This document shows positions 2,237 through 19,638 of a stretch of DNA of 38,177 nucleotides, piece by piece. Source of the DNA: a virus; the IMG/VR virus record IMGVR_UViG_3300036820_000626, positions 1-38,177 of that record; one strand, given 5' to 3'. Both the position numbers and the translations under genes were made by a program. Under the pieces are notes generated by a model that worked only from the letters and a program-made list of their open reading frames with translations, was not told the DNA's origin and ran no database searches. Position 1 is the first letter of the stretch. Each line of letters starts with the position of its first letter.

Positions 2237-2466
2237 TGGCCAAACGACGGGTACACATGAGCTTGGCGGCGCCAATCCTCGACCGCCTGGACGAACTCGC
2301 ACAGCGGTTTGGGTGGGACCGGAGCGGTGCCGCAAGCTATTGCATCTCTCGCGTCTACGAGGAGGAGGGACAGCGGCCAGCGAAGCCGCAGCGATCAGGC
2401 GCACGCACTAGTAAGGACGCCGCGGGCCCGGGCGGCCGAGCCGGGAAGCCTTTGAGCGGCCAATGA
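2236..2466 (+). CDS. Ribbon-helix-helix (CopG/Arc-like) DNA-binding protein
   Basis: 76 residues from the ATG at 2236. The short beta strand RRVHMSL (about 4-10), followed by helix PILDRLDELAQRFG, a turn WDRSGA, and helix ASYCISRVYEEE, is the classic ribbon-helix-helix layout. Such proteins bind operators as dimers, with the strand pair in the major groove. The C-terminal 28 residues are basic and low in complexity. No good ribosome binding site precedes it; the start sits in a TGATG overlap with a 22-codon frame. Its 3' end overlaps the end of the large terminase gene, encoded on the other strand, by 59 bases. It is probably a phage regulator or antitoxin-like repressor, but no toxin partner is adjacent. 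Confidence 0.7.
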   Translation: MAKRRVHMSLAAPILDRLDELAQRFGWDRSGAASYCISRVYEEEGQRPAKPQRSGARTSKDAAGPGGRAGKPLSGQ

Positions 2467-4138
2467 ACACCGGCTGTTGTTCTTCCCGTTCCTGGATCTC
2501 CAACTGCTTGATCGAAATCATCGCGTTGGTCGGGTCGAGCGTCTCCAGTATCTCCTGCACCTTTTCCTCTCGCGGCTTGACAGCTACGGTCTGCCACGTC
2601 ATCACCGCATATCTCAGGGAGTCGGCGACATCATCCAGCGGATCGCCGGCCACTTTCAGGATGTCGTCGAATTTCTTCGGATCCCGCACCCGGCTCATCA
2701 GCATATCGCGCGTCTTGCGGCAGTGATCCGCGATAATCAGTTCTCCGTCGCGGAGCATCTGATACATCAGCATCCAGCCGCTCTTGCGATCGTCGTTGGC
2801 GCGAATGAAGTTGAGCCCATAGGGGCTCAGAACGTCGTTCATCTGCTCGATGCGCGAGAATGGAACGTCCACATCGTTCACTGAGCCATCCTTGCGGAAG
2901 GCATCAGGAGAGACGGCCCACATCTGGAAGTTGCGCGGCAGTTCCGGGACCATCCCGTTTTCGAGAAACCAGCGGTTCAGCAGTTCGGCAGCATAGTCTC
3001 TGGCCGTGACGCCGGGCTCCGCAAACTCATCGAGCACCAGCAGGCGGCCGTTGGGGAAATCCTCTGTCGCCGGTAGACGCACCAGCAAGTGAGCCGCGGC
3101 CTGGGAAATGGTGAACCCGTAGTCGCCGCCCACCAGATGCGAATACCAATGCTTCACCTGCACGTCGGCGATAGGAAGGACCTGCCGCAGATCCGGGTGC
3201 TTCAGCACGAGCCGCCCGTTATCGTCCTGCTCAAACCCCCTGGTCTCCTCGTAGCAATCGAAGTACTGACCCTCCCACTGCTTCCAGCAGCCCGACAGCA
3301 GGACGGCTGCCGTCGCCGCGCTCTGCGTCTTGAGGTTGGCAATGTAATCGTTGCCGAGCAGGTTGTGGTCTGTGACTTTGCCGGCGATGAAGCAGACCGT
3401 CTTCTTTACCTCTGTGCCATCGTCCAGCTTGACCGAGACCGACTGCTTGTCGGAAGGCCACACCGCATCGTCATAGATGCGCCCCGTCTCGACCGCCATA
3501 TCTGGCGTGCAGTGAGGGCAATACCCACGCAGGAACAGCTTGAACAGGAAGTCGTGTCCTGAGCCGCCCGGGTTCGCAGTCAGGCGCATACGGAGCTTCA
3601 GCGTCTTGTCGGTGGAACGCAGGCGCGTGAGCATGTAGCGCACGCGAAATTCATTCTGGTGACCGGCTTCATCGAACCCGATGAAGGTATATTCCTGTCC
3701 CTGGTGTTTAAAAACATCCTTGTCCCGCGCCAGATAGGTGAAGGTGATTCTCGCGCCGCTCGGGAATTTCCAGATTTTAGGGTTGCCATCGACAAACTCG
3801 CCGCCGAGTGGCCGATAGAGCCGCTGCGACTTCATCACGATGTCGGCCAGTTCTGGATAGCTGGCGCGGAAAATCACGGCGTTCAGGTTCGGATTGTCGA
3901 TTTCGGCCGCCGCATCGACCAGCAGCGTCTCCGTCTTGAGGCTGCCTGCAGCGCCGCCGTACAGCAGGATGTCGGCTTCGCACTCGAGGGCCATGCGCTG
4001 AGGTTTCGATCGCACTTCCCAGATGCGCTTTTCGACCTTGCGCAGCAGAACCTCGTCGCGTTCGGAAAGCTCGCGCTTGAACTGTGAATCCGGGCGGCCG
4101 CTTTTGGCAACCGCTTCCCCTGCGACAACCGGGTTCAT
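2408..4138 (-). CDS. terL: Terminase large subunit (DNA packaging ATPase/nuclease)
   Basis: 576 residues, a normal length. It pumps DNA through the portal and cuts concatemers. The ATPase half shows a Walker A variant GGAAGSLKT (61-69) and Walker B with the catalytic pair FIGFDEAGH (Asp156, Glu157). The nuclease half has an RNase H-like acidic set: GGDYGF (Asp339) and, near the end, DPLDDVADS (Asp502, Asp503, Asp506). The region 205-240 contains CPHC and another Cys further on. The start ATG overlaps the small-subunit stop as ATGA, so the two are translationally coupled. It is the last gene of the long minus-strand operon, an unusual place, since terminases usually lead the packaging genes. 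Confidence 0.95.
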   Translation of the reverse strand: MNPVVAGEAVAKSGRPDSQFKRELSERDEVLLRKVEKRIWEVRSKPQRMALECEADILLYGGAAGSLKTETLLVDAAAEIDNPNLNAVIFRASYPELADIVMKSQRLYRPLGGEFVDGNPKIWKFPSGARITFTYLARDKDVFKHQGQEYTFIGFDEAGHQNEFRVRYMLTRLRSTDKTLKLRMRLTANPGGSGHDFLFKLFLRGYCPHCTPDMAVETGRIYDDAVWPSDKQSVSVKLDDGTEVKKTVCFIAGKVTDHNLLGNDYIANLKTQSAATAAVLLSGCWKQWEGQYFDCYEETRGFEQDDNGRLVLKHPDLRQVLPIADVQVKHWYSHLVGGDYGFTISQAAAHLLVRLPATEDFPNGRLLVLDEFAEPGVTARDYAAELLNRWFLENGMVPELPRNFQMWAVSPDAFRKDGSVNDVDVPFSRIEQMNDVLSPYGLNFIRANDDRKSGWMLMYQMLRDGELIIADHCRKTRDMLMSRVRDPKKFDDILKVAGDPLDDVADSLRYAVMTWQTVAVKPREEKVQEILETLDPTNAMISIKQLEIQEREEQQPVFIGRSKASRLGRPGPRRPY

Positions 4139-4827
4139 CCTGCGGCCTCAGACTCCACAACAGGAGTTTCGCCCGGAAGAGCCGGCTGCTGCCGCGCCAG
4201 TTTCCACGCTGGCTGATACAGGAAAACGTTCGTCGGCGCCGGCGGCTTCGATTCGCTCGGTTTCAGCGGGAAGCCTGCCTTCCGCTTGTAAGTCAGATCG
4301 ATCGCGCGAATGAGGTCTGCATCCTCGATAGGCGCAGCCCCTTCAAGGGACTTCTCGAACTTGTCAGACTTATTCAGTTTGATGGTCGGCTTTCCCCTGC
4401 CGCTCGGCGGGGGCACAATTTCAATGGACACCCCGCCGTCCTGCAGTTCCCGGGTATCCCGGGTCAGCATCTCGCCACGGGTGCGCCGCCGCGTACGAAT
4501 CAGTTCCGCCAGTCTGCCATCAGCCTCGTCAAGGGTTAGCAGGAGCGCCCGTGCGGACGTTTCCGCAGCCCGATCACGCATCTTCTCAAGGATCAGGCGA
4601 TTCTGATCCCTGATCTCCCGGTGCTTCATCAGACGCGAAGCGCCCGTATGCGGATTTTTGTCATCAGGCCAGACCGAACGGAACGCCTCTGCCTGATTGC
4701 CCGTCTCGCAGTAGTTCTGGCAAAACAGGAGTTCCTCGGCGGTGAGAGGTTTCTGCACCGCAACGCGAGCCATCTTGTCTTTCGCGCCCTTTGGCCGTCC
4801 GGTCGGCTTTTTCTTATTGCGCGGCAT
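4135..4827 (-). CDS. terS: Terminase small subunit
   Basis: 230 residues. The N-terminus is basic (RNKKK, GRPKGAKDK). It is followed by a helix-turn-helix typical of small terminases: LTAEELLFCQNYCETGNQAEAF (about 28-49) and a second helix GASRLMKHREIRDQ. A long helical segment (about 70-115) probably oligomerises. The remainder is a basic, Pro-rich tail of about 100 residues that is longer than usual. It recognises the packaging site and hands DNA to the large subunit. It overlaps the 3' end of the giant gene by 14 bases and the large-subunit start by 4. Confidence 0.85.
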   Translation of the reverse strand: MPRNKKKPTGRPKGAKDKMARVAVQKPLTAEELLFCQNYCETGNQAEAFRSVWPDDKNPHTGASRLMKHREIRDQNRLILEKMRDRAAETSARALLLTLDEADGRLAELIRTRRRTRGEMLTRDTRELQDGGVSIEIVPPPSGRGKPTIKLNKSDKFEKSLEGAAPIEDADLIRAIDLTYKRKAGFPLKPSESKPPAPTNVFLYQPAWKLARQQPALPGETPVVESEAAG

Positions 4828-7800
4828 CGGCTTCCCGAACCGCCAGGGGATTACGCCGCAGCAGCGAATAACGCTTCTCCTGGAGCAGCAGCCCCAGAAT
4901 CCGGCGTTCTTCAGGGGTAGCGTAGTTCTCGAATGTATCCCGAGCCTGCAGGTAGGTCAGCTTATTGAACAGTCGTTTCAATTCCGGCTCTCGGGCCTTG
5001 GTGCGCGCCTGGAAGCCAGCGGCCGTGTGTGACCCCAGGAGAGCCTGGCGCTGCTTGAAAGATTGTTCGATCTGCTGCTCGGTGCGCGGTATCTCCTGCT
5101 CCTGCGCAAGTGTGAGCATGTGCCGCTCGGCGCGAGAGAGACCCATCTCGTACGGCGCATTCGAGAAGCCTGCGCCGGTCAGCAGCCGCTGTGCAAGGGG
5201 CTGGCCTTCTCTGCCGCCGCGCAGTATGTTCCCCACGCCAATAGGAGAGCCGACGATGTGCTCCGCGTCGTCCAACCGCTGCTTCCAGAAAGGGTCCTCT
5301 GGATTGTGGATCATCGCGTGGCGGAAGTCCTCGTTCTCTAACACGTCGGCGAAGCCACGGACGAGGTCTGATTCCTTGCCCTGGAGGTAGTTAGTCGCAC
5401 CGTTGTACCAGAGCGACATAGCGTCCTTCATCACGATGGCGGGCAGCACAACGCGGCGGGGTCGGTTGTATTGGTCATATCCGCCGATCCGCGCAGCGAC
5501 GTAATCCTCGGGATCCTGCGGATTTTCGCCCGTGAGCAGCTTCTGCAGCAGGATGTTGCCGAGCACGAAGGTGCCTACCAGGCCCAGCAGCTTCGCCATA
5601 TCCGGATGCAGCCGCGGCATGGCTTTTGTGCTCGAAAACTCCGGACCCCATTTCGTATCCGAGTTGAACTGCTGGTTCAGATACTTCATGGACTCCAGGA
5701 TCTCCGCCGCCTGCCCGGTGAACGCCCGGCCGACCAGCCGGATGTTGCCAGCAAACCACGTGAAAGCCCGGAAGGCGAGCTGTACGATGGCCTTGAATGT
5801 GTTGTGCCAGAAAAACTTGTCCCAATTCATCTGGCCAAACACGTCCTCGACAGAGTCCCAGGTTTGCCGCGCCAGCCGAGGAACGGTCGTCTGGCCAGTG
5901 CCGAGATCTGCGTTGCGATCGGCGATGCGCTCAGACAGTTCCCGCACGAACCCAGCGAATTTGACCCGGGGGATGTAGTACTCGAATAGCGGCGTCATCA
6001 GGAACTGGTTCAACGCCGGTGCCGTGTGGAACAGCGCAGCGACGGCACGCTTCTCCGCGATCGCCTGCCGGAATGCTTCGAGCGAATGCAGCCGCTCGTC
6101 TGGGTGCAGGGCCAACTTTGCGCCGCCCGTGAACGCGGCATCGATCAGGCGATTAAGCCCCGGAAACTCGTTCAGCAGGTCCTGGCCACGGCTGCTGCGG
6201 ACAAAGCCCTGTGGATCGGAGACGTAGCGCACCAGCGATGTTCCCATCCGGTAATCAAGCACCGGAGCGGCTGGCGTCTTCGCAATTTCCTTCAGAGCGC
6301 GGCCGGCAAGCACCGCGTCCATCTCCCGCGCGGCGCGGCTCATCATCGAGAGTCCCAGGCCAGCCTGAGACGCGATCGACGAGACGCTGGTCGTGAGAGC
6401 GTGGAACGGGGAAAATCCGAGCCTGAAAGCCGTAAGTTGGTTCTTCGCCCACATCAGGCCGCGCCCAATGACGTTAGCCCGAATCCAGTCCTTCGACAGG
6501 AAGTGATTTAGCGCGAGTGCGTAATCCTTCCGCAAATACCATTTCCCCGCTTCGACCATCCCCTCGCCGGACGCCGCCGGGAACCGTACATCCCCAATGC
6601 GGTCCTCGACCTGCTCAAAGCCGTCCGGTGCGGTGCGCCCCTTAGGGATGAACACTCGTGCGCCGTCGTCCAGTGCATCGCGCCAAATCTGCATGGCGGT
6701 GATGTACCGATAGTGGTCCGCCTGCGTCCGCTCGAACATCCGAATCGGGTTGTAGGACCACGGAACGCCTCCGCGCTCGATGCCTTCGGCCATCGTGGGG
6801 AGCGTCTGCATCTTCAGAAAGCGCTTCGAACCCGCCAGCGGCCCCCGTCCCACGCCAGACGGTCCCGCCGGCACCGGCGCCGCAGCCTGCGCTTCCGCAC
6901 CCTCCTTTTGTGGGGGCACCTTCCAGATACGCCCAAAATAGTCCTTCTTGTAAGTGAGTGCGCCTTCGGAGATTTCCTGCAGGTGCTCGATCGCCGACTT
7001 CTGCGGCTTCTCCTTCGCCGGCAGGTCCCGCAGCAGATCCTGATACTCCGGATCGGTGCGAATGATATCCAGAAAGTCCTTCTCGCTCACGCCATCCGGC
7101 TGCCGCAACTTCGCGCGCTCGTGCAGGTCGAAGAAGGCCCGTTTGCCTTCAACCGACAGACGCCGCCAGGTGCTCGCCACCGGCTCGCGCATGTTGAGTG
7201 CCTGCACGTTCACGACGGCACGGTAAGTCTCATCCGATGCCCGCCGCATGAACTTGGCGAGCTTGTCCAGCTCCGGCGTGGGCTGCGCCTCGCCAAGAGA
7301 GATGCGATCGCCGATGGCCACCTGCTCTGCCTGAGTGAGATTCCCAACGGCTTTCCGAAAGCCATTGAGGATCTGCTCAAGGATAAAGGCCCGTTTCTCC
7401 CGCTCGCCGAGAGCTGACATGATATTGTCGAGGGCGCGCGGATCGATGAGAGACCTCGGCACCACCATGCCGCGGAGTTCGTCGAGGACAGCGTCGAGGT
7501 TCCTGCCGAGCTTCTCCAGCAAGGGCTTTACCTCCACGCCGTATTCGTGTACCAGCACCTTGCCGACAGCCTGTGCCGCGAGATCCAGGCCGAAAGCCGA
7601 AGCGCGGAGCGTCGTCCCGCCATGCGGCTTCGGGTTCGACTTCTCAATCTGGTCGGCCTGCGCGTCGACATCGTCAACGGCTTCGGCTTCGCCCGGATCC
7701 TCGTCGTCGCTGTCCTCCAGCAGGTCATCTTCGGGGTCATCTTTCACTTCAGCGGAGACAGCCTGCGCCATAGCGTTCTCCACATCGGAGCGCATCCCGA

Positions 7801-10800
7801 GCCGCTTCTCGACTTCTTCCAGTTCCTTGTGCACCTTGTCGAGCTGCGCCTGTTCGGGGAAGTCCACGCGCTCTGCAAGCTCCTGCAGCTTGCGGGCTTT
7901 TTCGCGTACCCGAGGCAGTTCCAGCTGTATCTCTTCGAGGTTATCGGGGACATCGCGGAGGCGGGACTCGATTGACCGCCCGAGCGAGACCATGGAGCGG
8001 CTCGGCACCGTGAAGTAACCGTTGGAATACTCGGGGGTGTAATCCATCCCGGAAAGGTTCCTGGCCTCCTCCGGGTTCAGGGAACGCACTTCGACAGCGA
8101 TGCCAATGCCGTTCCACGTGAGATGGAAGTTGCCCGGCGGGACCTCCATCGCGTCCAAATGCTCATAGAGTGACTTGCGATCGGCGAAAGTCTTGCCATC
8201 CACCTGGACGTGGATGCCCTTGCCGTCTTCTCCCTGCGCAGCTTTGATCTTGTCGAGGGCCTGGGACAACTTTTGGACATCGCCCTCGTACTTCGCGGCG
8301 CGCATCGCCTCACGCTCGGCGTTCTGCCTGTTGGCGGTGCGCTGGCTCTCCCAACTGCGCCTGATGGCCTGCAGTTGCGACTTCTGCATCTGCAGATTGT
8401 ACTGGAGCTTCACATCTGGATTGCCCGACGCGGCGATCTTCATCTCTTCGAGCGAAAGCACCATCTCGCTGGCGATGTCCGACATGACGCGTTCTTTGCT
8501 GCGGCCGCTCATCACCTGGGAGATAAATTCGGCTTTACCCTGGAGGGTCTGCGCCATGTAGGCGTCAAAACTGCGCTCGGTGAGGTAGTTATAGATGCGG
8601 ACACTCGGGTTGAGATTACCCTGCCGCATGATGCGCCCATTGCGCTGCGCCAGGTCTCCCGGGCGCCACGTCAGATCGATGTGGTGGAGCGCCTTCAGCA
8701 GTCGCTGCGCGTTTGTACCGGCGCCCATTTTGAAGGTGGAACCGAGCAGGACCCGGACATCGCCGCGGTTCATGGCTGAGAACAACTCCTGCCGCTTCAT
8801 GCGCGTATCGTGTTCCCCGATGATGGCGATCTGCTCTTCGGGGATTCCGCGTCCCGCCAGCTTCGCCCGGATGTCCTTATAAAGGTTGACCGTCTCCCGG
8901 TCACTCTCCGGCTCCGTCGCGCGGTAAAGGTCCAGGAAAGCCATCTGTGTGGCCGGCCCCTCCAGGTTGTCTCTCCCCTCCCGCCATTCCTCGTACATCT
9001 TGTCGACGGCGAGATTGATCTTCGAATCTGCGTCGTCCGGCAGCGTGGGATCGATGAGCCGCATATCCGTTGCGGCTTTGCGGCCATCCGTGGTGATGGC
9101 CAGCATGTTGTCGTCTTTCGGCTCGACCTTGCCGCTGCGCACCGCCTCGGCCCGTTTCATCAGGCTTTTGACAAATTGCTCGAGACGTGGCGATGCGGGG
9201 ACGGGGACGACGATAGGCTTGCCCGTCTCCAGATCGGGTGTAGGAAGGTCCAGATCCTCGGCTGTCTTGATGTCCGCGAACGAGCGGAACATATTCATCA
9301 GCTCGGGAACGTTCTGGAACTGCGCGAATTTGGAGCGCGCCTTGTAGCTGCGCCCGTCGGCCGAAAGCTCCATGGCCGTAATGACGCTGCCAAAATTGGC
9401 CGCCCAGTCGTCGAAGAAACGGATGCCGGCTCGCTCCATCACGTCGGGCGCAACGTACTTGAACATGGTGTACAGTTCGGCCATGGTGTTCTGGATCGGC
9501 GTCCCGGTGGAGAAGATGACCCCGCGGCCGTTCCCGCGGTCCTGCAGATACTCGGTTTTCATCTTCAGCCGCAGTGCGCTTTTGGCCTTCGCCTGCTGCA
9601 GCCCCGCGACCCGCGTCATCTTTGTGTAGAACGAGAGGTTCTTGTACATGTGAGCCTCATCCACAAAGAGCGCGTCCACGCCCGTGTCGTCGAAGTAGAT
9701 GGCCCTGTCTGCCTTCAGATCGGCCAATTTCTTCAGCATGGCATCGAGCTTCGCCATCCCGGTCTCAAGCTGCTTGATGGTGCGCTTCTCGCCTTTCTCT
9801 GCCTTCAGCGCATCGACAGTTTCGCGCAGCTCCTGCTTCTGTTTCTGGATGGTCACCCGCTGCCGTTCCGGCGAAATATCCATTAGGTTGAACTGCGAAT
9901 GCGGCAGGATGATCGCATCGAAATCGCCGGTGGCGATGCGGGACATGATGCGCTGCCGGTTCTTCGCGTCGAAGTCCTTCTCCGTCGGCACGAGCAGATT
10001 AGCGGCCGGGTAAAGATGCAGGAACTCCTTTCGGAACTGCTCGACAATATGGTTGGGAACCGTAACCATCGGCTTTTTAAAGGTGCCGACGCGACGCCCC
10101 TCCATGATGGACGCCGCCATCTCAAAGGTTTTGCCAGCGCCCACCTCATGCGCAAGGAGAGCCCGGCCTTCCTGCAGAACGCGCCACACAGCATTGAGTT
10201 GGTGGGCCTTCAGCGTGATCGATGGGTTCATGCCGGGGAAGGTCAGGTGCGACCCGTCGTATTCCACCTGCGCCAGATTGTTGTAAGCGTCGTTGTAAAG
10301 CCGCTGGAGTTCGGGCTTCCAATCGGAGCGAGCGGACCACTTCTGGAACTGCTGCCGAATCTTCTCCTGCGCTGCCTGCGCCGCCGTCGTGGCGTCCGCG
10401 TTCAGGATGGAATTGCCAGCCAAATCGGTATCGTAGACCGTTGCCTGCTTCTGGTTCAACGTCAGTTCGAGCAGAGTTGAAGCATCCACGCGCGGAGTTC
10501 CGTATTCCCCCTGTGTCTCAGCGGTACGCTGTGCGACCGTCACCTTCCAGTTTCCCATCAGGTATTTAACTTCGCCGCCGGTCCGGAACACGTCCCGCAT
10601 GAAATCCCGAATCGCGTCTGTCGGGATCCACGTCGAGCCCAGGCGTACGGCCAGCGATGAGCGGGGGTCGTCGCCTATCTCAATGTCGGCCGGAATGACT
10701 TTTTCGAGAGCTGCGACATTCGGAGCGTACTCCTTCACGCCCTGCGCAACGGCCTTCTTCGCGTCGCGGAGCTTGTCGCGGACATACCCTGAGAGATAGG

Positions 10801-13800
10801 TCTCGCGGGTCTGGTACTGGCCGCTCGCCGGATTCCGGTAGATGAGCCCCTGATCGCGCAGGGTCTTGACGGTATCCTCGACCGAATCGCCTCTGAGCCG
10901 CGCCATCATCTGCACGTCGGGGAATCCACGCTCTGCAAGGACGAGCTGCAACGCTGCCTTAGGGTCGTCGGGGAGGGACTTCAGTTCCTCGCGCGGGAAG
11001 ATTGTGCGCCGGCGGAAGATATCTGCCCTGGTCCCCTTCCTCGCAGCCCTGTCCCAGTTCTCGAGAGCCAGAAGCCGCGGATAATGAGGATCGTCTCGGA
11101 ATGCATTGTTCGCTATGCCGTTGAGATATCCGTATTTTACGGCGAAAGCGTTGTATTCCTTCTCCAGTGCTCCGCGCAGCTGTGCGACTCTCCCATTGCC
11201 CTCGTCGTCGCCCGGCTGAGTCAACATGGCGCCAAGCAGCCGGTTCATCGAATCGCGCACTCCAACGAGTGCCTTGAATCGCTGGATCTTGCTCAGGACA
11301 GGTTTGCCGGCTTTATCGAGGACAGCCTCGGGCGCAACGAGTTTGCCGTCGATGCGTTGTTTCAGATTGTCCCTGGCATCGATCGTGTACTGGCCCTCTT
11401 TAACGTTATCTGGCGCGAACTCAGCCGCCGTCTGTGCGAGCGCCGAGCCTGTTGGCTCCTGAATCGCCGCATCGCTGATGATCCCGCGCGGGAGCTTCTT
11501 CTGGGCTTCCTTCAGCAGTTCTTCGATGTTGCTTCCCTCGTGCGCTTCGAGCACGAATCCCATGCCGCCATACATTTTGGTGGAGGCAGTCGGCTTCCCA
11601 AGCATCATCTCGGGGTGCTGCTGGAAATACTCGTTGACGTTCAGCGTCTCCATGCTCCCGTGCTTGCCCGGGAATTTCTGGGGCACGGCATTCAGCCATT
11701 CCGCCCTGTGGTTCGGCTCCTGGCCGGCCGCACGCTTCAGGAGGAAAATCAGGTCCGTTGTAACATCGGTCCCGGCGTTCGCCTTGAATGCGCCGGATGG
11801 GAGACGGATTGCCCCGAGGAAATCTGATTTCGACGCGAGCAGGGTGCGGATACCCGAGTCGGCTTTGTCCATGGTGCCCGTGGATGTGATAAAAGCGAGC
11901 ACGCCTCCGGGGCGCACCTTGTCCAGCGACTTCACAAAAAAGAAGTCATGCACCAGCGCAGTCAGTTTTTTATATTTGGGGTCGTACAACTTGTAGCCAC
12001 CGAACGGCGGATTGCCGATCGCCAGATCCACATCATCATCTGGCAGGATGAGGTCGGCGAAATCTTTGTTGAACGCAGTGGCTTCCGGATAGAGGAGCCG
12101 GGCGATGCCGAAGCTCACAGTATCCATCTCGTTGATGACCGCATTCACCTTCGCGCGGACAGACTTCGGCATCATGCCAAGGAAGTTGCCGGTGCCCACG
12201 GCCGGTTCGAGGACGTTTCCCGCCTTGAAGCCGAATCGCTGCGCCGTGTCCCACATGAAGCGGACGAGTTCTGGAGAGGTATAGTGGGCATTTTTCGTGG
12301 ATTCCTGGGCGCGCGCCATCTCATCGGGCGACAGAAGTTTTTGCAGTTCGCTGTTTGCGGCCTTCCACCGCGCCTGTTCCGCGACGGGTGCCATCCACGG
12401 GTCGAAGGCGTGCTGAAGAGCGCCCCATCCGACATAGTTAGCGAGCGCGTCACGCTCCTCGTCGGCCAACCTGCGCGGCTTCTTCTCAATGTCGCGCAGG
12501 ATGCGAATGGCCTTGAGGTTGGCCTCGAGCCGGCCGACAGTGCCGCTGGGCGGATGCCAGTTGTCGGGATGGACATACCAGCCGCGGTTGAGAGCCTTCG
12601 GCCTGGTCGTCTCGCGGACGGCCTTGCGGACTACTGCGCCGCCGGGGGTACTATCAAGTTCTGAATCGCTTCCCGCCCCTGATCCGGATTCAGGCCCCGA
12701 TTCTGGTACTGATGCAGGGTTTCCACGCACATCAGCGCGGTCTGGTGGATTTCCTTCTTCAGCGTCCCGTCCGCTTCCAGCTTCCGGTAATACTTCTTGC
12801 GGAACCTCTTCCAGTCCGTTTCGATCCGCGCCTCCAGCACGGGCAGCCGGGCGTCCTCCTCCGGCTTCACCGTCACCTGCGGAATGGGCTCTTTCGTCTC
12901 CACTGTCGTCATTTTGCGCCTCTTTCTCCGGGCTTGCAACCGTCTCCTGCGGCTGCGCGGCCTCGTCGAACACGTCCAGGTTCTCCGGCGTGCTCTCGGC
13001 GGGGCCAAGCACCTTCTTATGACTGACGTTGTACTCTTTGCCGTCTTCGGCTTTGATTCGCGCGACCAGCGCGTTCGAGTGTTTTACGGTACCGCTGCGC
13101 TCGTTGCCGTCCCTGTCGAGGAAACGAACAACATCGCCCTTCCGGGTGCGCGAAAACTTTACTTCGGCTGCTGCTCCAGGTCTTTCAGGCTGTTCGCCGG
13201 CTGGATGTTCTCGCTGCTCTGGAACCGATCCGGCCACAGGTTCCCCGGCGCGAAGAGATGGCTTTTCTTCGGCAGCGGCGTCCCCTTCTCTTCCATCCGC
13301 TTTTCCAGTCCCTCGACGAAGTTCTGCATCTCCTTCGCCATCTCGGGCGACCTGGTTTTCTGGCTCTCCAGAGCGTTCGCTGTCAACCGCTCCCACTCTG
13401 CCAGCCGTTCCGGTGACACTGGCATTTCGGTTCTCCTCTTTCAGTTTCGCGGCATACTCAAGGTACAACCGCGCCTGTTCCTTCTGTACCGCGATGTCTC
13501 TTTCGGCATCTGTACGCTGTTGCTCATCGCTGCGCCTGGATGCCGGATTGACCTTTCGAGCCGCATCCATCGTAGCGTCAACGCTCTGCTCGGACAAGGA
13601 CGCGGGGCGCGTTTCCGCGCCCACGGCCAGCTCTGGCGATTCTCCGCGACCTCCTTCCTGTTTGGTGGGATTTGCTGCGGAATTCTCGGCAGCTTTGTCG
13701 AATACATCGCCGCCCTGGCGCTGCAGCCGGTCCTTGATGACCTGACCCGTCGGCTTGACGCTGATCGCCGCGCCCGGGTGCCGTTCTGCCAGCGTCGCGG

Positions 13801-15859
13801 CCTGCGCATGGACCGCCTGCGGATTCGTGAGGTCTACTTCGCTGTCCTGGATCGGCGTGCCATCGGGAGCGGAGGCCTGCACGACGGTCGTACGCTTCCC
13901 GGCCAACTCTTCTTTCGTCTGGACATGTCCGAGCAGGTCGCCATGCGTGCCGTTCTCTGCGGCGCGGCGGATCGTCGCAGGCTTGACGGCCTTCGGGTTG
14001 TAAACGTACGTCCCGGCGCCTGGACCCTTCCGAACATCCATCGCCTTGAAGCCGTCCGGAATGGCCGGCTTGTAGCCAGACCCCTGGGGCAGCATGACGA
14101 CGCTGATATTGCCGCTCCTGAGCGCGGACATCTGCGCATCGACCGTGGCGCGCGATTCCTCGACAACAGGTTCCTCTTTTGCGCCGACGGTCGGAATCGA
14201 TGCGGCGGATTTTTCCTGTTGCCACTGATTAATGAGAGCCTGCGCCTTTCCATATCCCACCCGCAACTGGCGCTGAATCAGAGCGAGGGAAGGTCGCTTC
14301 CCAGCTTCCGCTGACGAATCCAATAGCGTCTGAGCCCGCTGGTAAAGCCGCCCCTCTGGTTCCTCGGCTGGTTCGTTCGGCTTCTGCTGTTCAACGGCTT
14401 TCGCCGGCTGCGCTGCTGGTTCCGGTTGCGGCTGATTTCGAATTGTGTCTTGCCGGGCCACTTCCGTGTTCACCAACTTGGCCGCGAGAGTCTGCGCCTG
14501 CTCGGGAGTCTTGACGATGTGAATCTCGCCATTGACGATGACGCGGCCCTGCTGTGCCATCCATTTCGCCAGATTCTCGTGCGCTTCCATCACCAGACCC
14601 GGACGGTCACCCGTCGCCGCCATCGCAATGGCTTTGGCGACATTCTGGATGGTATCCGGCGTGAGAATGCCCTGATCCATCCCCTGCGGCATCGGAGGCG
14701 CCGGGGGCTTCGGCGTCACGGAAGCTACAGCTTCGGCGGGCGGCACTCCCTGCACGATGGCCGCCGCTGCGGCTTCAGTGCGCTGCCGCTCGGCCATGGC
14801 TGCGGTGGCATCGCTGATCTGCCGGACAGCGGTCAGCCGCACCGGATCGACGGGACCACGCGGAACGCTGATGCTGACCTGCTTGCTCCCCACGCGAGCT
14901 CCGGCCGCCATCTCGGAATCCGTCGCGCCGAAGCCGGCCTGCACACGGCCGCCAAAGAGCGAGAGAGCTTTCCCCCTGATTCCCCTGGTGTTGACGTCGC
15001 CGGTCTGGATCCCACTTACGACCGCAGCAGCAGTCGGCAGGAAGAAGGCCAGCGTATTGGCGAACTCCTGGGCTTCCGGGCTCAGTCCCGCAGCCTTCGC
15101 CGCCAGGGCTGCGCCTTTCCCTGCATAGACGCCAGCATAGTAGCCGGCGAACATCTTGATTGGGGCAGCCGCCACTCCTTCCGCGAATAGCGGCGTTCCC
15201 AAGCCCATCGCGCCCTGGATCATTTCCGTGCCGCCTCGTTCCATCTGGCGAACGTTCGTGCGGCCCGGCTGCTCGATGGGCTTGCCCAATGCGATCGCCT
15301 GCAGCGGTGTCAGAGAGCCGCCGGCATTCGCACCCTCGACAACATCTCCTGTGCCGCGCCACAACTCACCGGCCGCCTGCCGTGGCCCCGCAGCGAGTCC
15401 CGTTGGACGCACAGCCTGTTGTTCGGCATACAGTTGTTGCTCCTCGGGAGTCGCCTGCCGCATCCCCGCCGGGACGCCGGAGAGCGCGGTCCCCCATGGC
15501 TCCTCCCGCATGGGTGCTGGATTCGGAGTCTCCGGTCCGCGCAGCGTCGGCGTTACTGGCTCCAGGGCATTTTTCTCGTTCGGTATGTCCGCAACGGTCT
15601 GCGGCGGAGGCGTAGTCTGCGCGAGCCGATATCCGCCGTCTCCTGCGGCTTCGGCCGCCTGCTCCGCCGTCGTTGCTCCCTGCGGCCTGGCGAACCGCTG
15701 CAGGATTGATTGACCGGGATTCTGATAGTTCGGCTGCAGCGGCACGCTGGACATCGCCCGCATTTGCGCGAGGGATTGCGCCTGCTGGTCCTGCTGCGCC
15801 ATATCGAAAACATCCGGCTGCGCAGGTGCAGCGGCAGCCTGGTCAAAGACATCCGGCAC
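4814..15859 (-). CDS. Giant polyvalent virion protein: N6-adenine methyltransferase + SF2 helicase + ejection-type C-terminus (DarB-like)
   Basis: 3681 residues, uninterrupted. GTG start with GGGAGG five bases upstream. Order: disordered Pro/Ala-rich N-terminus with DVFDxA motifs (3, 16, 718, 962); hydrophobic segment 210-285; FtsK-gamma-like winged helix 504-549; small domain 570-650; SH3/KOW-like segment 902-952; methyltransferase about 1090-1400 (motif I EPAVGTGNF from 1218, NPPF 1283-1286); SF2 helicase about 1880-2480 (GAGKT 1907-1911, DEAH 2067-2070, QRNGRIMRQGN from 2405); coiled coils; acidic cluster near 2707; C-terminal region 3000-3681 with a membrane-like helix near 3424-3443. Methyltransferase plus helicase is the architecture of phage P1 DarB, packaged in the head and protecting injected DNA from restriction. 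The C-terminus resembles domains in phage polyvalent proteins. Position between ejection proteins and terminase supports packaging in the virion. All catalytic motifs look intact. Confidence 0.9.
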   Translation of the reverse strand: MPDVFDQAAAAPAQPDVFDMAQQDQQAQSLAQMRAMSSVPLQPNYQNPGQSILQRFARPQGATTAEQAAEAAGDGGYRLAQTTPPPQTVADIPNEKNALEPVTPTLRGPETPNPAPMREEPWGTALSGVPAGMRQATPEEQQLYAEQQAVRPTGLAAGPRQAAGELWRGTGDVVEGANAGGSLTPLQAIALGKPIEQPGRTNVRQMERGGTEMIQGAMGLGTPLFAEGVAAAPIKMFAGYYAGVYAGKGAALAAKAAGLSPEAQEFANTLAFFLPTAAAVVSGIQTGDVNTRGIRGKALSLFGGRVQAGFGATDSEMAAGARVGSKQVSISVPRGPVDPVRLTAVRQISDATAAMAERQRTEAAAAAIVQGVPPAEAVASVTPKPPAPPMPQGMDQGILTPDTIQNVAKAIAMAATGDRPGLVMEAHENLAKWMAQQGRVIVNGEIHIVKTPEQAQTLAAKLVNTEVARQDTIRNQPQPEPAAQPAKAVEQQKPNEPAEEPEGRLYQRAQTLLDSSAEAGKRPSLALIQRQLRVGYGKAQALINQWQQEKSAASIPTVGAKEEPVVEESRATVDAQMSALRSGNISVVMLPQGSGYKPAIPDGFKAMDVRKGPGAGTYVYNPKAVKPATIRRAAENGTHGDLLGHVQTKEELAGKRTTVVQASAPDGTPIQDSEVDLTNPQAVHAQAATLAERHPGAAISVKPTGQVIKDRLQRQGGDVFDKAAENSAANPTKQEGGRGESPELAVGAETRPASLSEQSVDATMDAARKVNPASRRSDEQQRTDAERDIAVQKEQARLYLEYAAKLKEENRNASVTGTAGRVGAVDSERSGEPENQVARDGEGDAELRRGTGKADGREGDAAAEEKPSLRAGEPVAGSVPEQREHPAGEQPERPGAAAEVKFSRTRKGDVVRFLDRDGNERSGTVKHSNALVARIKAEDGKEYNVSHKKVLGPAESTPENLDVFDEAAQPQETVASPEKEAQNDDSGDERAHSAGDGEAGGGRPAARAGGADRNGLEEVPQEVLPEAGSGRDAEEGNPPDRADVRGNPASVPESGPESGSGAGSDSELDSTPGGAVVRKAVRETTRPKALNRGWYVHPDNWHPPSGTVGRLEANLKAIRILRDIEKKPRRLADEERDALANYVGWGALQHAFDPWMAPVAEQARWKAANSELQKLLSPDEMARAQESTKNAHYTSPELVRFMWDTAQRFGFKAGNVLEPAVGTGNFLGMMPKSVRAKVNAVINEMDTVSFGIARLLYPEATAFNKDFADLILPDDDVDLAIGNPPFGGYKLYDPKYKKLTALVHDFFFVKSLDKVRPGGVLAFITSTGTMDKADSGIRTLLASKSDFLGAIRLPSGAFKANAGTDVTTDLIFLLKRAAGQEPNHRAEWLNAVPQKFPGKHGSMETLNVNEYFQQHPEMMLGKPTASTKMYGGMGFVLEAHEGSNIEELLKEAQKKLPRGIISDAAIQEPTGSALAQTAAEFAPDNVKEGQYTIDARDNLKQRIDGKLVAPEAVLDKAGKPVLSKIQRFKALVGVRDSMNRLLGAMLTQPGDDEGNGRVAQLRGALEKEYNAFAVKYGYLNGIANNAFRDDPHYPRLLALENWDRAARKGTRADIFRRRTIFPREELKSLPDDPKAALQLVLAERGFPDVQMMARLRGDSVEDTVKTLRDQGLIYRNPASGQYQTRETYLSGYVRDKLRDAKKAVAQGVKEYAPNVAALEKVIPADIEIGDDPRSSLAVRLGSTWIPTDAIRDFMRDVFRTGGEVKYLMGNWKVTVAQRTAETQGEYGTPRVDASTLLELTLNQKQATVYDTDLAGNSILNADATTAAQAAQEKIRQQFQKWSARSDWKPELQRLYNDAYNNLAQVEYDGSHLTFPGMNPSITLKAHQLNAVWRVLQEGRALLAHEVGAGKTFEMAASIMEGRRVGTFKKPMVTVPNHIVEQFRKEFLHLYPAANLLVPTEKDFDAKNRQRIMSRIATGDFDAIILPHSQFNLMDISPERQRVTIQKQKQELRETVDALKAEKGEKRTIKQLETGMAKLDAMLKKLADLKADRAIYFDDTGVDALFVDEAHMYKNLSFYTKMTRVAGLQQAKAKSALRLKMKTEYLQDRGNGRGVIFSTGTPIQNTMAELYTMFKYVAPDVMERAGIRFFDDWAANFGSVITAMELSADGRSYKARSKFAQFQNVPELMNMFRSFADIKTAEDLDLPTPDLETGKPIVVPVPASPRLEQFVKSLMKRAEAVRSGKVEPKDDNMLAITTDGRKAATDMRLIDPTLPDDADSKINLAVDKMYEEWREGRDNLEGPATQMAFLDLYRATEPESDRETVNLYKDIRAKLAGRGIPEEQIAIIGEHDTRMKRQELFSAMNRGDVRVLLGSTFKMGAGTNAQRLLKALHHIDLTWRPGDLAQRNGRIMRQGNLNPSVRIYNYLTERSFDAYMAQTLQGKAEFISQVMSGRSKERVMSDIASEMVLSLEEMKIAASGNPDVKLQYNLQMQKSQLQAIRRSWESQRTANRQNAEREAMRAAKYEGDVQKLSQALDKIKAAQGEDGKGIHVQVDGKTFADRKSLYEHLDAMEVPPGNFHLTWNGIGIAVEVRSLNPEEARNLSGMDYTPEYSNGYFTVPSRSMVSLGRSIESRLRDVPDNLEEIQLELPRVREKARKLQELAERVDFPEQAQLDKVHKELEEVEKRLGMRSDVENAMAQAVSAEVKDDPEDDLLEDSDDEDPGEAEAVDDVDAQADQIEKSNPKPHGGTTLRASAFGLDLAAQAVGKVLVHEYGVEVKPLLEKLGRNLDAVLDELRGMVVPRSLIDPRALDNIMSALGEREKRAFILEQILNGFRKAVGNLTQAEQVAIGDRISLGEAQPTPELDKLAKFMRRASDETYRAVVNVQALNMREPVASTWRRLSVEGKRAFFDLHERAKLRQPDGVSEKDFLDIIRTDPEYQDLLRDLPAKEKPQKSAIEHLQEISEGALTYKKDYFGRIWKVPPQKEGAEAQAAAPVPAGPSGVGRGPLAGSKRFLKMQTLPTMAEGIERGGVPWSYNPIRMFERTQADHYRYITAMQIWRDALDDGARVFIPKGRTAPDGFEQVEDRIGDVRFPAASGEGMVEAGKWYLRKDYALALNHFLSKDWIRANVIGRGLMWAKNQLTAFRLGFSPFHALTTSVSSIASQAGLGLSMMSRAAREMDAVLAGRALKEIAKTPAAPVLDYRMGTSLVRYVSDPQGFVRSSRGQDLLNEFPGLNRLIDAAFTGGAKLALHPDERLHSLEAFRQAIAEKRAVAALFHTAPALNQFLMTPLFEYYIPRVKFAGFVRELSERIADRNADLGTGQTTVPRLARQTWDSVEDVFGQMNWDKFFWHNTFKAIVQLAFRAFTWFAGNIRLVGRAFTGQAAEILESMKYLNQQFNSDTKWGPEFSSTKAMPRLHPDMAKLLGLVGTFVLGNILLQKLLTGENPQDPEDYVAARIGGYDQYNRPRRVVLPAIVMKDAMSLWYNGATNYLQGKESDLVRGFADVLENEDFRHAMIHNPEDPFWKQRLDDAEHIVGSPIGVGNILRGGREGQPLAQRLLTGAGFSNAPYEMGLSRAERHMLTLAQEQEIPRTEQQIEQSFKQRQALLGSHTAAGFQARTKAREPELKRLFNKLTYLQARDTFENYATPEERRILGLLLQEKRYSLLRRNPLAVREADAAQ
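12631..12912 (-). CDS. Nested small gene inside the giant gene (93 aa, shifted frame)
   Basis: 93 residues starting MTTVETKEP at an ATG preceded by AGAGG at good spacing. The frame is shifted one base downstream of the giant gene. The product has natural composition: a helical core (LPVLEARIETDWKRF, KKYYRKLEADGTLKKEI, then a helix with LHQYQNRGLNPDQG) and an end in IVPPAAQ. It vaguely resembles small mobile-element proteins that follow large phage or plasmid genes, but no family was established. By hand count only 16 of 93 codons end in A or T in this frame, against about 59 of 93 in the giant frame over the same bases, where the giant protein is low-complexity Gly/Glu/Asp/Ala. This codon signal says the small frame is, or was, a real gene. 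Confidence 0.65.
   Translation of the reverse strand: MTTVETKEPIPQVTVKPEEDARLPVLEARIETDWKRFRKKYYRKLEADGTLKKEIHQTALMCVETLHQYQNRGLNPDQGREAIQNLIVPPAAQ
13159..13425 (-). CDS. Nested small gene inside the giant gene (88 aa, shifted frame)
   Basis: 88 residues starting MPVSPERLAEWERL at an ATG preceded by AAGAGGAG with seven bases between, a strong ribosome binding site. It uses the same shifted frame as the other nested gene. It is helical and charged (residues 5-48), then has a Pro/Phe-rich segment (HLFAPGNLWPDRF). No family was recognised. By hand count 14 of 88 codons end in A or T, against about 54 of 88 in the giant frame over the same bases. There the giant protein reads as a Gly/Glu/Arg/Ala-rich linker between the region ending near residue 812 and the SH3-like segment at 902. 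A real overlapping gene, or a captured former gene, is likely. Confidence 0.65.
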   Translation of the reverse strand: MPVSPERLAEWERLTANALESQKTRSPEMAKEMQNFVEGLEKRMEEKGTPLPKKSHLFAPGNLWPDRFQSSENIQPANSLKDLEQQPK

Positions 15860-15871
15860 TCGCGCCTCCCG

Positions 15872-17161
15872 TCAGAACTTCCAGTTATTTCGGGCAGCAA
15901 GCTGCCGCGCCCTTGCTTTGTCGCCGCCAGCAGCCGTGAGGAATTGCTGAGCCGTCTGCACATCCAGAGCGCGCCCTTTGCCCATCGGAAGATTGCCGGG
16001 TGCACCTTGCGGGGCTACCGCCGGCTGCAACGCTCCAGGCACCGCACCATTCGAGTTATTCAGCGGCTTCCCGTCAGGACCATAACGCACTGGCTGCACC
16101 GGATAGCCGAGCCCCTGCATCTGCGCAGCGTAGTTGCCCTCGATCTGTTGCTTCGCCGCTTCGTGCTGCGCGTTCAGTTCGTCGATTGCTTCCTGGCGCT
16201 CCGCATCCGTGTAGGGCTTGCTTGTAATGGGATTCTGGGGCGCCGTCTGAATGTCCTTCAATTGCTGCCGGTATCCCTCATTCCCCTTGCTGTCGCCGTT
16301 CTCCAGAGCGTCATAGGCCTTCTGGCGCTGCTGGTCGAGCGTGTTGGCCGCGAGTTGCCGGCGAAGCTGCGATGCCTGATCGGCATTCTGCCGGGTGCCG
16401 GTATTCTGCCGCTCGACGGAAAGCCGCTCTTCGCCAAGCCTGTAGTTGCGCTGGTCATTCGTTTTCTGCTCGCTCAGCTGGGCCGCGTCATTGGCCTGCG
16501 CATTTGTGTCGCGCGTGACCTGCTGCTCGTAGGTGCGGTCAGTGTTCTTCTGACCCTGCGCCGCCTGCCCTGTGCGGAAATTTTGATCCCAGTTCTGCGC
16601 GTCTTCCTGATCCTGCATCTCCCGCTGCCGTGCCTGCGCCTCATAGCCGCGCAGGTTATTGCCGAAGTCCTGCTGCGCGAGATCGTTCTGGTCCTTCCAG
16701 TCCTGAATTGCTCCCTCGTCGGCGGAGACCTGTTTGCCCTGGGCCGCATCGGTGGCTTCCTGACGGCGATTCGTGACCGCACTGCCCGCCTTGATGCCGG
16801 CCAGCGGTCCCTCGCGATAGCCCGTACCGAAGCCGACAAGGCCTCCGGCCAGCCTGTCGTACCACTTCGGCGCGACGGTTACGGGCTGGCGGTCCTGCTC
16901 AAGCCTTCCCTGGAGCGTTGCCAGTGCACCGCCATCCGGCGAGTAATTTGCCGGCGGCGTTGGGGCTCCCGACGGCAACGTGGGAAGCACGGCTTTCTCG
17001 TATGCCGACGAGAGAATCGCCTGAGATACCGCCGGCGGCACCACAGACGTGGCTGCTGATGCGGGGACAGAGCCACTGCCAGCGGCTCGCACGAGTGGGC
17101 TGGTAGGCTGGTCCTCATCCTCGTCGTCCGGCACTTGCACTGCAGTGATGGGCGATGGCAT
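15872..17161 (-). CDS. Gln-rich coiled-coil virion protein, putative ejection protein
   Basis: 429 residues. Pro/Ala/Ser-rich N-terminus (1-85); a short hydrophobic Gly-rich segment GGLVGFGTGYREG near 105-118; then a long Gln/Asn/Asp/Arg-rich helical stretch (about 130-330) that should form a coiled coil; and a small C-terminal unit (about 395-429) with ALDVQTAQQFLTAAGGDKAR ending in NNWKF. No enzymatic motif. The composition and the place between another Gln-rich protein and the giant virion protein fit an internal head protein delivered with the DNA, comparable in position to gp14-gp16 of T7 or gp7/gp20/gp16 of P22 (analogy, not homology). The ATG directly follows the upstream TAG (TAGATG), with GGAGGTGG just before it inside the upstream gene. 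Confidence 0.75.
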   Translation of the reverse strand: MPSPITAVQVPDDEDEDQPTSPLVRAAGSGSVPASAATSVVPPAVSQAILSSAYEKAVLPTLPSGAPTPPANYSPDGGALATLQGRLEQDRQPVTVAPKWYDRLAGGLVGFGTGYREGPLAGIKAGSAVTNRRQEATDAAQGKQVSADEGAIQDWKDQNDLAQQDFGNNLRGYEAQARQREMQDQEDAQNWDQNFRTGQAAQGQKNTDRTYEQQVTRDTNAQANDAAQLSEQKTNDQRNYRLGEERLSVERQNTGTRQNADQASQLRRQLAANTLDQQRQKAYDALENGDSKGNEGYRQQLKDIQTAPQNPITSKPYTDAERQEAIDELNAQHEAAKQQIEGNYAAQMQGLGYPVQPVRYGPDGKPLNNSNGAVPGALQPAVAPQGAPGNLPMGKGRALDVQTAQQFLTAAGGDKARARQLAARNNWKF

Positions 17162-17722
17162 CTACCCACCTCCATACGCTGCGCCGGCTCCTGCCGCTGC
17201 GCCGCCAATGATTTGGCCCCACATGCCCATTTCCGCATCGTCGGCGTTCGTGAGATCCCCGAGGGCTGCGTCGCTTCCCTGTGTCGTCGTCCCCAATATC
17301 CCGGCCTCGGAATCCGCTCCGGCCAGCCGATCATGCAGCAATCCCTGCTCATACTGCAGGTACTTGTCCTCGTTGTCGTTGGCGGCCTGAGCGTTGTATT
17401 GATCCATCGTCCGCTGACCCTGCCGCGCACTGTCGGCGATGGTGTCATTGATCGCGGCCGTATTTTCCCCGGTGCGCAGCGCGGTGTCCTGCAACTGCTG
17501 CTTCGCCTTCATATTGTTAGCGTTCATGGCTCCGGAGGTGAGGAGGTTCTGATTCGTGAGGAAGGATTTAGACGTGTAGGGATTACCCTGCCCCTCCATC
17601 GTCGAGAGGTTGTTGTTATAGCCCGACATCGCCGTGTTGTAATTGCTGAGCGCGGACTTTTCCCATTGCTGGTACTGGTTATTTGCCGCGGAATCAGCAC
17701 TGCTCGCCGAACCACATGCCAT
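17162..17722 (-). CDS. Small Gln/Asn-rich internal virion protein candidate (T7 gp14-like features)
   Basis: 186 residues. ATG preceded by GAGGTGAGG. Polar, Gln/Asn/Ala/Ser-rich with helical repeats (NNQYQQWEKSALSNYN; MDQYNAQAANDNEDKYLQYE), ending in a Gly/Ala-rich hydrophobic tail (MWGQIIGGAAAGAGAAYGGG), as in small ejection proteins that insert into membranes. There is no signal peptide. The Gly codons of the tail double as the ribosome binding site of the next gene. It is the first of three consecutive putative internal proteins ahead of the terminase genes. The ejection role is inferred from composition and position. Confidence 0.7.
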   Translation of the reverse strand: MACGSASSADSAANNQYQQWEKSALSNYNTAMSGYNNNLSTMEGQGNPYTSKSFLTNQNLLTSGAMNANNMKAKQQLQDTALRTGENTAAINDTIADSARQGQRTMDQYNAQAANDNEDKYLQYEQGLLHDRLAGADSEAGILGTTTQGSDAALGDLTNADDAEMGMWGQIIGGAAAGAGAAYGGG

Positions 17723-17752: not shown

Positions 17753-18187
17753 TCAGAAGATCCTGAAGACGAATTGCGCCATCTCCCGGTCTATCCGTTT
17801 CATTCCCGGAATAAACCGGCTCACCAAAGCCGCCAGCCTGCGCGGCACATTCACGCGGCAGAGGCGTACGCTGCGCTCCCCACAGAAGCGCTCAAGGGCA
17901 GGGAAGAGTTCCGAGACGGTTTCGAGGGCGCCACGCTCCAGCCCGATCGATGCCCACTCGACTGTCGCCTCCCCGTAAAGCGCCTCAACGATCTCGCCAG
18001 CATCGTTCTCCGCCACGAGTGTGAGGACTGCCGGCATCTTCATCAGGTCGAGCCGCGCTGCTTTCCCGACTCGCTGTTCCTGCTCAAACCACATCTGGTG
18101 AACCCGAAGCAGGTCCTCGATCCGGGCCAGCCGCCAAACGTAGCCGTTCGAGGTTCGAAGCCGCCACTGGAGGTCTAGGTCTGCCAT
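17753..18187 (-). CDS. GNAT acetyltransferase-like phage protein
   Basis: About 144 residues from the ATG at 18187 (MADLDLQW), which overlaps the upstream stop by 13 bases. A GTG 33 bases earlier would add 11 residues and is less likely. The pattern is RLARIEDLLRVHQMWFEQEQ, then AVLTLVAENDAGEIVEALYGE, a helix containing LETVSELFPALERFCGE, and a final strand pair. This matches the helix and strand order of a GNAT fold, although the classic Q/RxxGxG/A acetyl-CoA loop is not clear, so catalysis is doubtful. Similar small proteins occur beside podovirus tail genes (recollection). It could be a structural derivative of the fold. Confidence 0.5.
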   Translation of the reverse strand: MADLDLQWRLRTSNGYVWRLARIEDLLRVHQMWFEQEQRVGKAARLDLMKMPAVLTLVAENDAGEIVEALYGEATVEWASIGLERGALETVSELFPALERFCGERSVRLCRVNVPRRLAALVSRFIPGMKRIDREMAQFVFRIF

Positions 18188-19638
18188 GCGATCGCCGCCC
18201 ACGCGATACTGCCGGTCCACTCGTTGCCAGAGCCGTCGGCGTAGACGAGAATCGTCTGGCCAGCTGCGTTCACGGCGCAGAGTTGAATCCCGTGAAGGTC
18301 GTTACCGCCGCTTCCGGTGGTGCTGACTGGCGTGCAGAAGCCGATTGCGGTGACTCCCCCTGCCGAATCCTGCCACGCGAATCCCGCTGGAAGAGGAATC
18401 GTTGCGCCGCTCGCACAGGTGCCCGTCCCGAAGGCCAGTTTGCCGCTCGGGGTCTCGATAATGAGGAACTGGCCACCCGTAACCGCCTGCACATGGGACT
18501 GCAGAGCTGGTGACCATGCGATGCAGAACCACTGCGCGTCTGCTGACCAGGTCGCTCCCTCGGAGACGGAATCGCCGTCACCCCATTTGAAGGCGACGGC
18601 CATTTCGGTCTGACTCCCAGCCTTTGGGGTGATCGAAGCATTGGCGACGCCGTGAGCTGTGTTGCCGTTGGCCGTTTGAACGCTCGCCGCCGACGGTATT
18701 GCCATCGCGTTCGTGTTGCTGAATCCCGGCGGCAGGGAAAAGCTGCCGCCGTCGGCCGTGATCCCGGACCCGAAGGCGATGAGATTTCCGCCGGACAGCA
18801 TGAAGACAGCGAAAGTCCCGCCGGTGATGTCCGAAATAACCGGCTTCTGTCCCTGAGAGCCCCACCCGAAAACCAGACAGTTCGCCGTCGCCGGCCATGG
18901 AGTCGCGCCGTCTGTCCACTCGCAGAGGACCGTGCCCTGCTCATTGATCGAGGCGTTCAGGCCGATCGCATGGCGTCCTGCGTCCTGGAAGCTTCCGGGC
19001 GCGGCAATCCCGACCGAGTTCTCGATAGCCGTCCCGGGGCCCGGTGCAACCGGAAGCCCGTCGCCGACGGCTGATACTCCAATGCCGGCGGTGGTAGAAC
19101 CGGGGAGCAGGAACATCGCATACAGGCCGTCACCGGCTGGCTGCACCGAAACGCTGTCCACCGCAGCGTTTACAGGTTTTCCCCCGTTGATCGTTTTCCA
19201 TGCGTTCCACGTATTGCCGTCGTAGCTCGATCGCACCTGAAAATACCAGCCCAGGGACGGGTCGAGGTCGGTGATGACAAACTGGGACTGCGCAGCACCG
19301 TTGTCTCCGCCGTAGAGGGTCGCATTGCTCGCTGCGTCGAACAGCCGCGTCGTGGCAGCACGGACCTGGTTGTAGATGATCATCGCCCCGGCGCTTGCTC
19401 CTACTGATGCCTGCTGGGCCGCCTGCTGTGTAGTTGCCGCCTGCTGTGCAGTGAAAGTGACCACGAACAACGGATTCTCGAAAGTGACGCTCGCCGCCTG
19501 CTGCGCCGGAGCTGGTGTATTGCCGGTTGCTGTCGCCTGCTGCTGCTGGCTCAAAGACGATGCGAGTTGCCGCAGCATATTCCTCAGCGCCGGATTGCCG
19601 CCGCTGGCCTCCTCGATATTGAAGCGGGGAACCGCCAT
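18175..19638 (-). CDS. Tail fibre-like protein with tandem beta repeats and an FnIII-like domain
   Basis: 487 residues. The N-terminus is helical and Gln/Ala-rich (1-85), suited to trimerisation or attachment. Residues about 90-155 look like a fibronectin type III domain (RLFDAASNATLY, then ITDLDPSLGWYFQVRSS). From about 225 there are two full copies and one partial copy of a roughly 112-residue unit. Matching landmarks are LCEWTDGATPWPATANCLVFGW, AFKWGDGD...WFCIAW and VYADGSGNEW...AIAW, and between them GGNLIAFGSG...LPPGF and SGKLAFGTG...LPAGF. It is probably a receptor-binding or decoration protein. The ATG directly follows the stop of the Ig-domain gene (TAGATG), with GAGG upstream. Confidence 0.75.
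   Translation of the reverse strand: MAVPRFNIEEASGGNPALRNMLRQLASSLSQQQQATATGNTPAPAQQAASVTFENPLFVVTFTAQQAATTQQAAQQASVGASAGAMIIYNQVRAATTRLFDAASNATLYGGDNGAAQSQFVITDLDPSLGWYFQVRSSYDGNTWNAWKTINGGKPVNAAVDSVSVQPAGDGLYAMFLLPGSTTAGIGVSAVGDGLPVAPGPGTAIENSVGIAAPGSFQDAGRHAIGLNASINEQGTVLCEWTDGATPWPATANCLVFGWGSQGQKPVISDITGGTFAVFMLSGGNLIAFGSGITADGGSFSLPPGFSNTNAMAIPSAASVQTANGNTAHGVANASITPKAGSQTEMAVAFKWGDGDSVSEGATWSADAQWFCIAWSPALQSHVQAVTGGQFLIIETPSGKLAFGTGTCASGATIPLPAGFAWQDSAGGVTAIGFCTPVSTTGSGGNDLHGIQLCAVNAAGQTILVYADGSGNEWTGSIAWAAIAWQT

Follow-up and report, generated by a model that had tools for sequence, protein, structure and literature searches.

The window considered here, meaning the whole stretch of DNA that was analysed, is the 38,177-base IMG/VR record IMGVR_UViG_3300036820_000626. 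It contains a genuine open reading frame of 3681 residues on the minus strand (4814..15859), beginning with a GTG at 15859 that has a GGGAGG upstream of it and ending with a stop at 4814, which encodes a giant DarB-like polyvalent protein (P0001). Upstream of it, on the same strand, lie a gene for a 429-residue protein (15872..17161), presumed to be an ejection or virion protein, and a gene for a small protein of 186 residues (17162..17722) that is conserved upstream of the giant in the related contig L075; beyond these are tail and head genes (including major head protein-like and scaffold-like genes), and a portal gene is presumed to be present, judging from length and from relatives. Downstream, again on the minus strand, are the small (4135..4827) and large (2408..4138) subunits of the terminase. 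The original prediction, which had the giant flanked by putative ejection proteins (15872-17722) and the terminase (4827-2408), was right as to position, but the word “ejection” here describes position only and corresponds to no family match. An integrase of the Phage_integrase family (1-1260, plus strand) opens the window, and the record starts exactly at its ATG and ends within an open reading frame at 37473-38177; it could represent a trimmed provirus or a partial genome, its closest relatives being contigs of 66-71 kb. A 155-residue ORF at 17753-18220 has 31% identity to an ORF in the same position upstream of the L075 giant; it appears acetyltransferase-like by eye only, Pfam having given no match, and Bcep22-like phages have an annotated N-acyltransferase at a similar position. 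A collagen-like (GTNGTNGTNG), tail-fibre-like protein is encoded at 32966-34294, and its C-terminal end is common to distant relatives in the soil phage contigs G015 and G010.

Residues ~970-2540 of the giant match the PHROG for DarB-like antirestriction proteins with E=0, in agreement with the methyltransferase/helicase core originally proposed. Within this region, profiles, motifs and alignment together define a gamma-class N6-adenine methyltransferase at residues ~1184-1380 (11720..12310, minus strand) and an SNF2-type helicase/translocase at residues ~1877-2540 (8240..10231, minus strand), while alignment places before them an LPD36-like region (residues ~1100-1180; 12320..12562, minus strand) with the motif GWGA, corresponding to the GXGU given for LPD36 in PMC5512222. 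The protein therefore has the composition of a DarB-like dyad, that is, an adenine methyltransferase with SAM and NPP(Y/F) motifs fused to SNF2 with LPD36 before it, a combination that the same source describes in polyvalent proteins. All the motifs that had been named as intact are indeed present (EPAVGTGNF at 1218, NPPF at 1283, GAGKT at 1907, DEAH at 2067 and QRNGRIMRQGN at 2405), and in an alignment of the giant with nine relatives the GWG of LPD36, the SAM-binding glycines, the N, P and F of NPPF, and the helicase motifs VGAGKT and RQGN are all invariant or nearly so. Membership of this family suggests that the giant acts as a methylase and translocase, and the further proposal that it modifies or remodels incoming DNA may be regarded as a conjecture. 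The smaller features ascribed to the protein fared less well. An FtsK-gamma-like winged helix (residues 521-549; 14213..14299, minus strand) is seen with a segment E of 2e-5 but falls below the Pfam cut-off (24.6 vs 30.6 bits); FtsK winged-helix domains do occur occasionally in polyvalent proteins (PMC5512222). The supposed SH3-like segment (residues ~906-927) gave merely a chance-level match to KOW (E 0.22). As for the membrane-like helix near the C-terminus, residues 3424-3442 do have a Kyte-Doolittle value of 1.75, but this is one helix within what is predicted to be a globular helical module; a second hydrophobic stretch of the giant lies at residues 266-284 (15008..15064, minus strand).

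That module, referred to below as the C-terminal helical module (CTM), occupies residues 2960-3681 (~720 residues; 4817..6982, minus strand). It is present in about 80 viral contigs, at the end of giant ORFs (in 67 measured cases it ends no more than 282 residues from the C-terminus), and since just about ten of the ORFs that bear it have a DarB core, it is evidently joined to varied N-terminal parts. Sequence searches found no family for it in Pfam or PHROGs and no match in the PDB. An AlphaFold2 model based on 66 aligned sequences is confident and mainly helical (pLDDT 88.7, pTM 0.85), and in Foldseek it matched 16 phage proteins at E <= 1e-3 (best 5e-16), annotated as large polyvalent protein associated domain, ART-PolyVal or lytic transglycosylase-like, with nothing significant in the PDB. 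With an LPD-type C-terminal module whose fold matches large polyvalent proteins at E values from 5e-16 to 1e-3, disparate domains in one polypeptide and a late-gene context, the giant has the features of a polyvalent protein. LPD38 (PF18857) itself gave no match to the window giant at the Pfam cut-off; there are sub-threshold matches in relatives (E 0.0015, 0.0085 and 0.048), hhalign gave E 0.08, and within the CTM a weak stretch resembling the N..F.G..I of LPD38 occurs at 5297..5368 (minus strand), all of which is suggestive of a divergent LPD38 near residues 3498-3521. The predicted fold is related to those of large polyvalent phage proteins and only weakly to LPD38. The idea of an ejection-type C-terminus is upheld to the extent that this is a module of virion-type giants with the fold of polyvalent proteins, but no link to the ejection proteins of P22 or T7 was found, nor any significant PDB match.

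The architecture of the giant is already known from Vibrio phage VvAW1 and the Bcep22-like phages, and the window protein adds to a known family without founding a new one. Relatives of its core were found in 118 records of phages and 2115 of plasmids, as well as in cellular genome contigs, identities being 32-41% to named phages and 47-77% to environmental phages, while the last 1142 and the first 900 residues have no match among named phages. The core profile also found environmental phage contigs (L073-L079) with 46-75% identity and lengths of up to 71 kb, which is a reason to think that the window is perhaps just part of a larger genome; L075 resembles the window giant along most of the protein, and in L074, L076 and L077 the large terminase follows the giant. 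No close relatives emerged from peptide patterns based solely on the C-terminus, core, capsid or portal, and patterns from the large terminase gave distant ones (~27%) without a DarB core. A close counterpart in overall plan is VvAW1 gp1 (YP_007518343.1), which has 3640 residues and an LPD36-methyltransferase-SNF2 core with 38% identity, and which, in a genome of 38.7 kb (nearly equal in size to the window), comes after a DNA-ejection gene. It differs in having a clear C-terminal LPD38 (E 6.6e-41) with no sequence similarity to the CTM, and in lacking the DVFD header described below; moreover, the VvAW1 terminase genes lie on the other side, across the head genes. The DarB-like proteins of Bcep22-like phages (BcepIL02 gp70, JC1 gp69, and those of PEp14, SopranoGao and Atu_ph08) are likewise late-gene giants with the same enzyme pair and 32-39% identity, but they are longer (4400-5000 residues) and are described as having N-terminal transglycosylase or hydrolase domains and LPD3, LPD38 and LPD39, none of which was found above threshold in the window giant.

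For homologues there are published experiments: JC1 gp69 was detected in purified virions by mass spectrometry with 51 unique peptides (PMC9144972), and P1 DarB resides in the head, its 30 N-terminal residues being enough to bring a reporter into the capsid (PMC9024508). Other workers have thus shown for homologues both presence in the virion and targeting to the capsid by the N-terminus, so that the core idea of the original prediction was largely established there, and is mostly prior knowledge. The comparison with P1 DarB that it drew is apt in that this is a virion protein with the same methyltransferase and SNF2 helicase and an N-terminal capsid-targeting segment (PMC9024508), but it is a distant one: P1 DarB has 2255 residues, is 24-32% identical in three pieces, has neither tandem header nor CTM, and acts together with further Dar proteins (PMC9024508). 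The polyvalent proteins of Iyer et al. (2017) share with the giant a multidomain make-up, late-gene location and an LPD36-methylase-SWI2/SNF2 dyad; the available text of that work (PMC5512222) makes no mention of a tandem header and partner, and the CTM is not in Pfam.

What the original prediction missed is a tandem peptide at the N-terminus of the giant (VPDVFDQAAAAPAQPDVFDMA) and its coupling to the upstream protein. The two copies of this header are PDVFDQA (residues 2-8; 15836..15856, minus strand) and PDVFDMA (residues 15-21; 15797..15817, minus strand), the second using another codon than the first at 4 of the 6 identical residues, and there are two internal copies on the same strand, GDVFDKA (residues 717-723; 13691..13711) and LDVFDEA (residues 961-967; 12959..12979). 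Other giants have tandem headers of their own (PWEEAAQ twice in L073, PPPPxGY twice in L074, PPKGF twice in both L078 and L079), and the copy number ranges from 2 to 4 (L384). When headers were counted as the best self-match within the first 100 codons and compared with shuffles, they were found in 30 of 60 CTM giants as against 6 of 705 other ORFs from the same contigs (p<=0.005; a Fisher value of 3e-31 is merely nominal, because related sequences are not independent). Among DarB giants generally the figure is 6 of 61, and the header therefore goes with the CTM, not with the enzyme. Across 27 giants, of 150 degenerate residues that are identical between the copies, 82 are encoded by different codons, which argues that the copies are held as peptides by selection rather than reflecting recent duplication. 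Extra copies elsewhere in the same protein occur at 0.48 per protein, roughly ninefold more than for foreign motifs (0.05), whereas other proteins of the same contig have the motif at no more than background level. At L239 (4451-12055) the sequence AQKHGLT occurs twice, deeper in the N-terminus, and looks unlike the header class.

Among 79 loci with a CTM, only one, L285, contains a protein related to the upstream protein of the window, and this locus also has a D[VI]FD header, though its CTM is just distantly related to that of the window. The similarity between the two upstream proteins is limited to their C-terminal end, which here reads LDVQTAQQFLTAAGGDKARARQLAARNNWKF and constitutes a UBA-like mini-domain (15875..15976, minus strand), the proposed docking partner; it is predicted to have two confident helices and short flanking strands, and in Foldseek most PDB rows are UBA domains, yet with E>2 (not significant). 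A search of named phages gave no match to it. It was then predicted, ahead of the test, that wherever an ORF opens with tandem D[VI]FD copies the protein encoded just before it should end in this mini-domain, and IMG/VR was scanned for the tandem DNA pattern. Among the matches listed, ten ORFs have a strict header (tandem copies in the first 70 codons), one of them without upstream DNA, and at all nine testable loci the upstream protein carries the same mini-domain of ~35 residues at its C-terminus or close to it. Eight of the nine show the strict mini-domain pattern; the ninth, L446, has the mini-domain 36 residues before the end of the upstream ORF and was counted after relaxing the pattern post hoc. 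Conversely, of 22,249 ORF ends in the loci retrieved, 9 show the strict form of the tail (a pattern refined once the first matches were known), and among the matches listed a header pair follows all nine, although, since most of these loci were picked by their header, this count shows only how rare the tail is elsewhere. Eight upstream proteins that were compared have no mutual similarity beyond their last 45 residues, and the giants with D[VI]FD headers are mostly unrelated to each other outside the header; the distance from mini-domain to header is about 100-250 bp in every case. At L334, L346, L379, L384, L397 and L446 the ORF concerned is a giant or mid-sized phage protein unrelated to the window giant that combines the D[VI]FD header with this tail on the protein upstream, and the L384 giant matches a PHROG for internal virion protein (E 8e-6). 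In the literature searched, with most subscription journals outside its scope, no docking motif on phage giants was found, and the coupling of header and mini-domain appears to be undescribed in the searchable literature.

For other classes of header the picture is only suggestive. Headers such as PWE(E/K), PVxGDPF, NPLDxLD and others likewise accompany similar upstream tails, and a pair test across all classes gave p=0.001, but with just 10 pairs, some of low complexity; tail-similar pairs in these classes are mostly ordinary relatives, and a Mantel test of header against upstream tail over all classes gave r=0.078, with 120 of 2000 permutations as high. As a general rule, then, a lock-and-key arrangement has the backing of a single class that was tested well.

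The reading that we favour, with a probability of roughly 0.6 taken as a whole, is that a temperate, podovirus-like phage carries the giant in its virion as a polyvalent protein, whose tandem DVFDxA peptides, perhaps with the two internal copies, would bind the UBA-like mini-domain of the upstream protein and thereby recruit the giant into the prohead beside other ejection proteins. The CTM would be a common part of such giants that serves in loading or in crossing the envelope, and at infection the giant would enter along with the DNA, where its LPD36-methyltransferase-SNF2 core might translocate on the duplex and methylate adenines, or simply occupy the DNA, so blunting restriction. That the giant is carried in the virion is probable; docking onto the upstream protein for loading and ejection is suggested by the strict co-occurrence of header and mini-domain, and the ejection and enzymatic roles are inferred. 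The header may be compared with the capsid-targeting sequences of the T4 internal proteins and P1 DarB, where a short N-terminal peptide also sends a protein into the head, but unlike these it is repeated, phage-specific and co-occurs with a C-terminal domain of the upstream product; that P1 DarB does without such a tandem header counts against docking. The broader notion of an exchangeable lock-and-key loading system, in which tandem peptides and upstream C-terminal domains form pairs that differ by phage and into which unrelated payloads can be plugged, seems to us an evenly balanced proposition.

The main rival to docking is linkage of neighbouring DNA: header and tail are adjacent, and linkage alone could hold them together. 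On this account the giant would be an ordinary DarB-like virion protein, and header and mini-domain a junction cassette co-inherited by recombination without any mutual binding, as would accord with their lying within about 100-250 bp of each other everywhere and with the tendency of phage modules to recombine at gene boundaries. It is, however, hard to see why header copies in such a cassette should have diverged in codons and not in residues, why their number should vary from 2 to 4, or why further copies should turn up in distant linkers (residues 717 and 961) at about ninefold the rate of foreign motifs, and we consider this explanation rather unlikely. The linker copies could instead be taken to mean that the DVFDxA repeats are protease sites at which a polyprotein is cut at domain boundaries during or after packaging, polyvalent proteins being thought to be processed (PMC5512222); but two copies within the first 21 residues would make poor domain separators, a protease leaves the strict pairing with the upstream mini-domain unexplained, and this is the least probable of the alternatives. 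Finally, the giant might not be packaged at all, being synthesised after infection or in the lysogen as an orphan methyltransferase/helicase, much as homologous cores are common on plasmids (the 2115 records noted above) and occur in cellular genome contigs. Its late-gene position between putative ejection genes and terminase, the module fused to it, which also occurs in polyvalent phage giants, and the occurrence of JC1 gp69 (PMC9144972) and P1 DarB (PMC9024508) in virions all speak against this, and it too is quite improbable.

It is the coupling of header and mini-domain that most deserves to be taken further. It bears on how a phage picks out proteins of 2000-5000 residues for packaging and later passes them through its tail, and a header peptide that reliably predicts the partner domain of its neighbour offers a specific and cheap test. 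The pairing also connects virions with functionally uncharacterised enzyme payloads, and the header peptide could be a possible route for steering cargo into phage heads.
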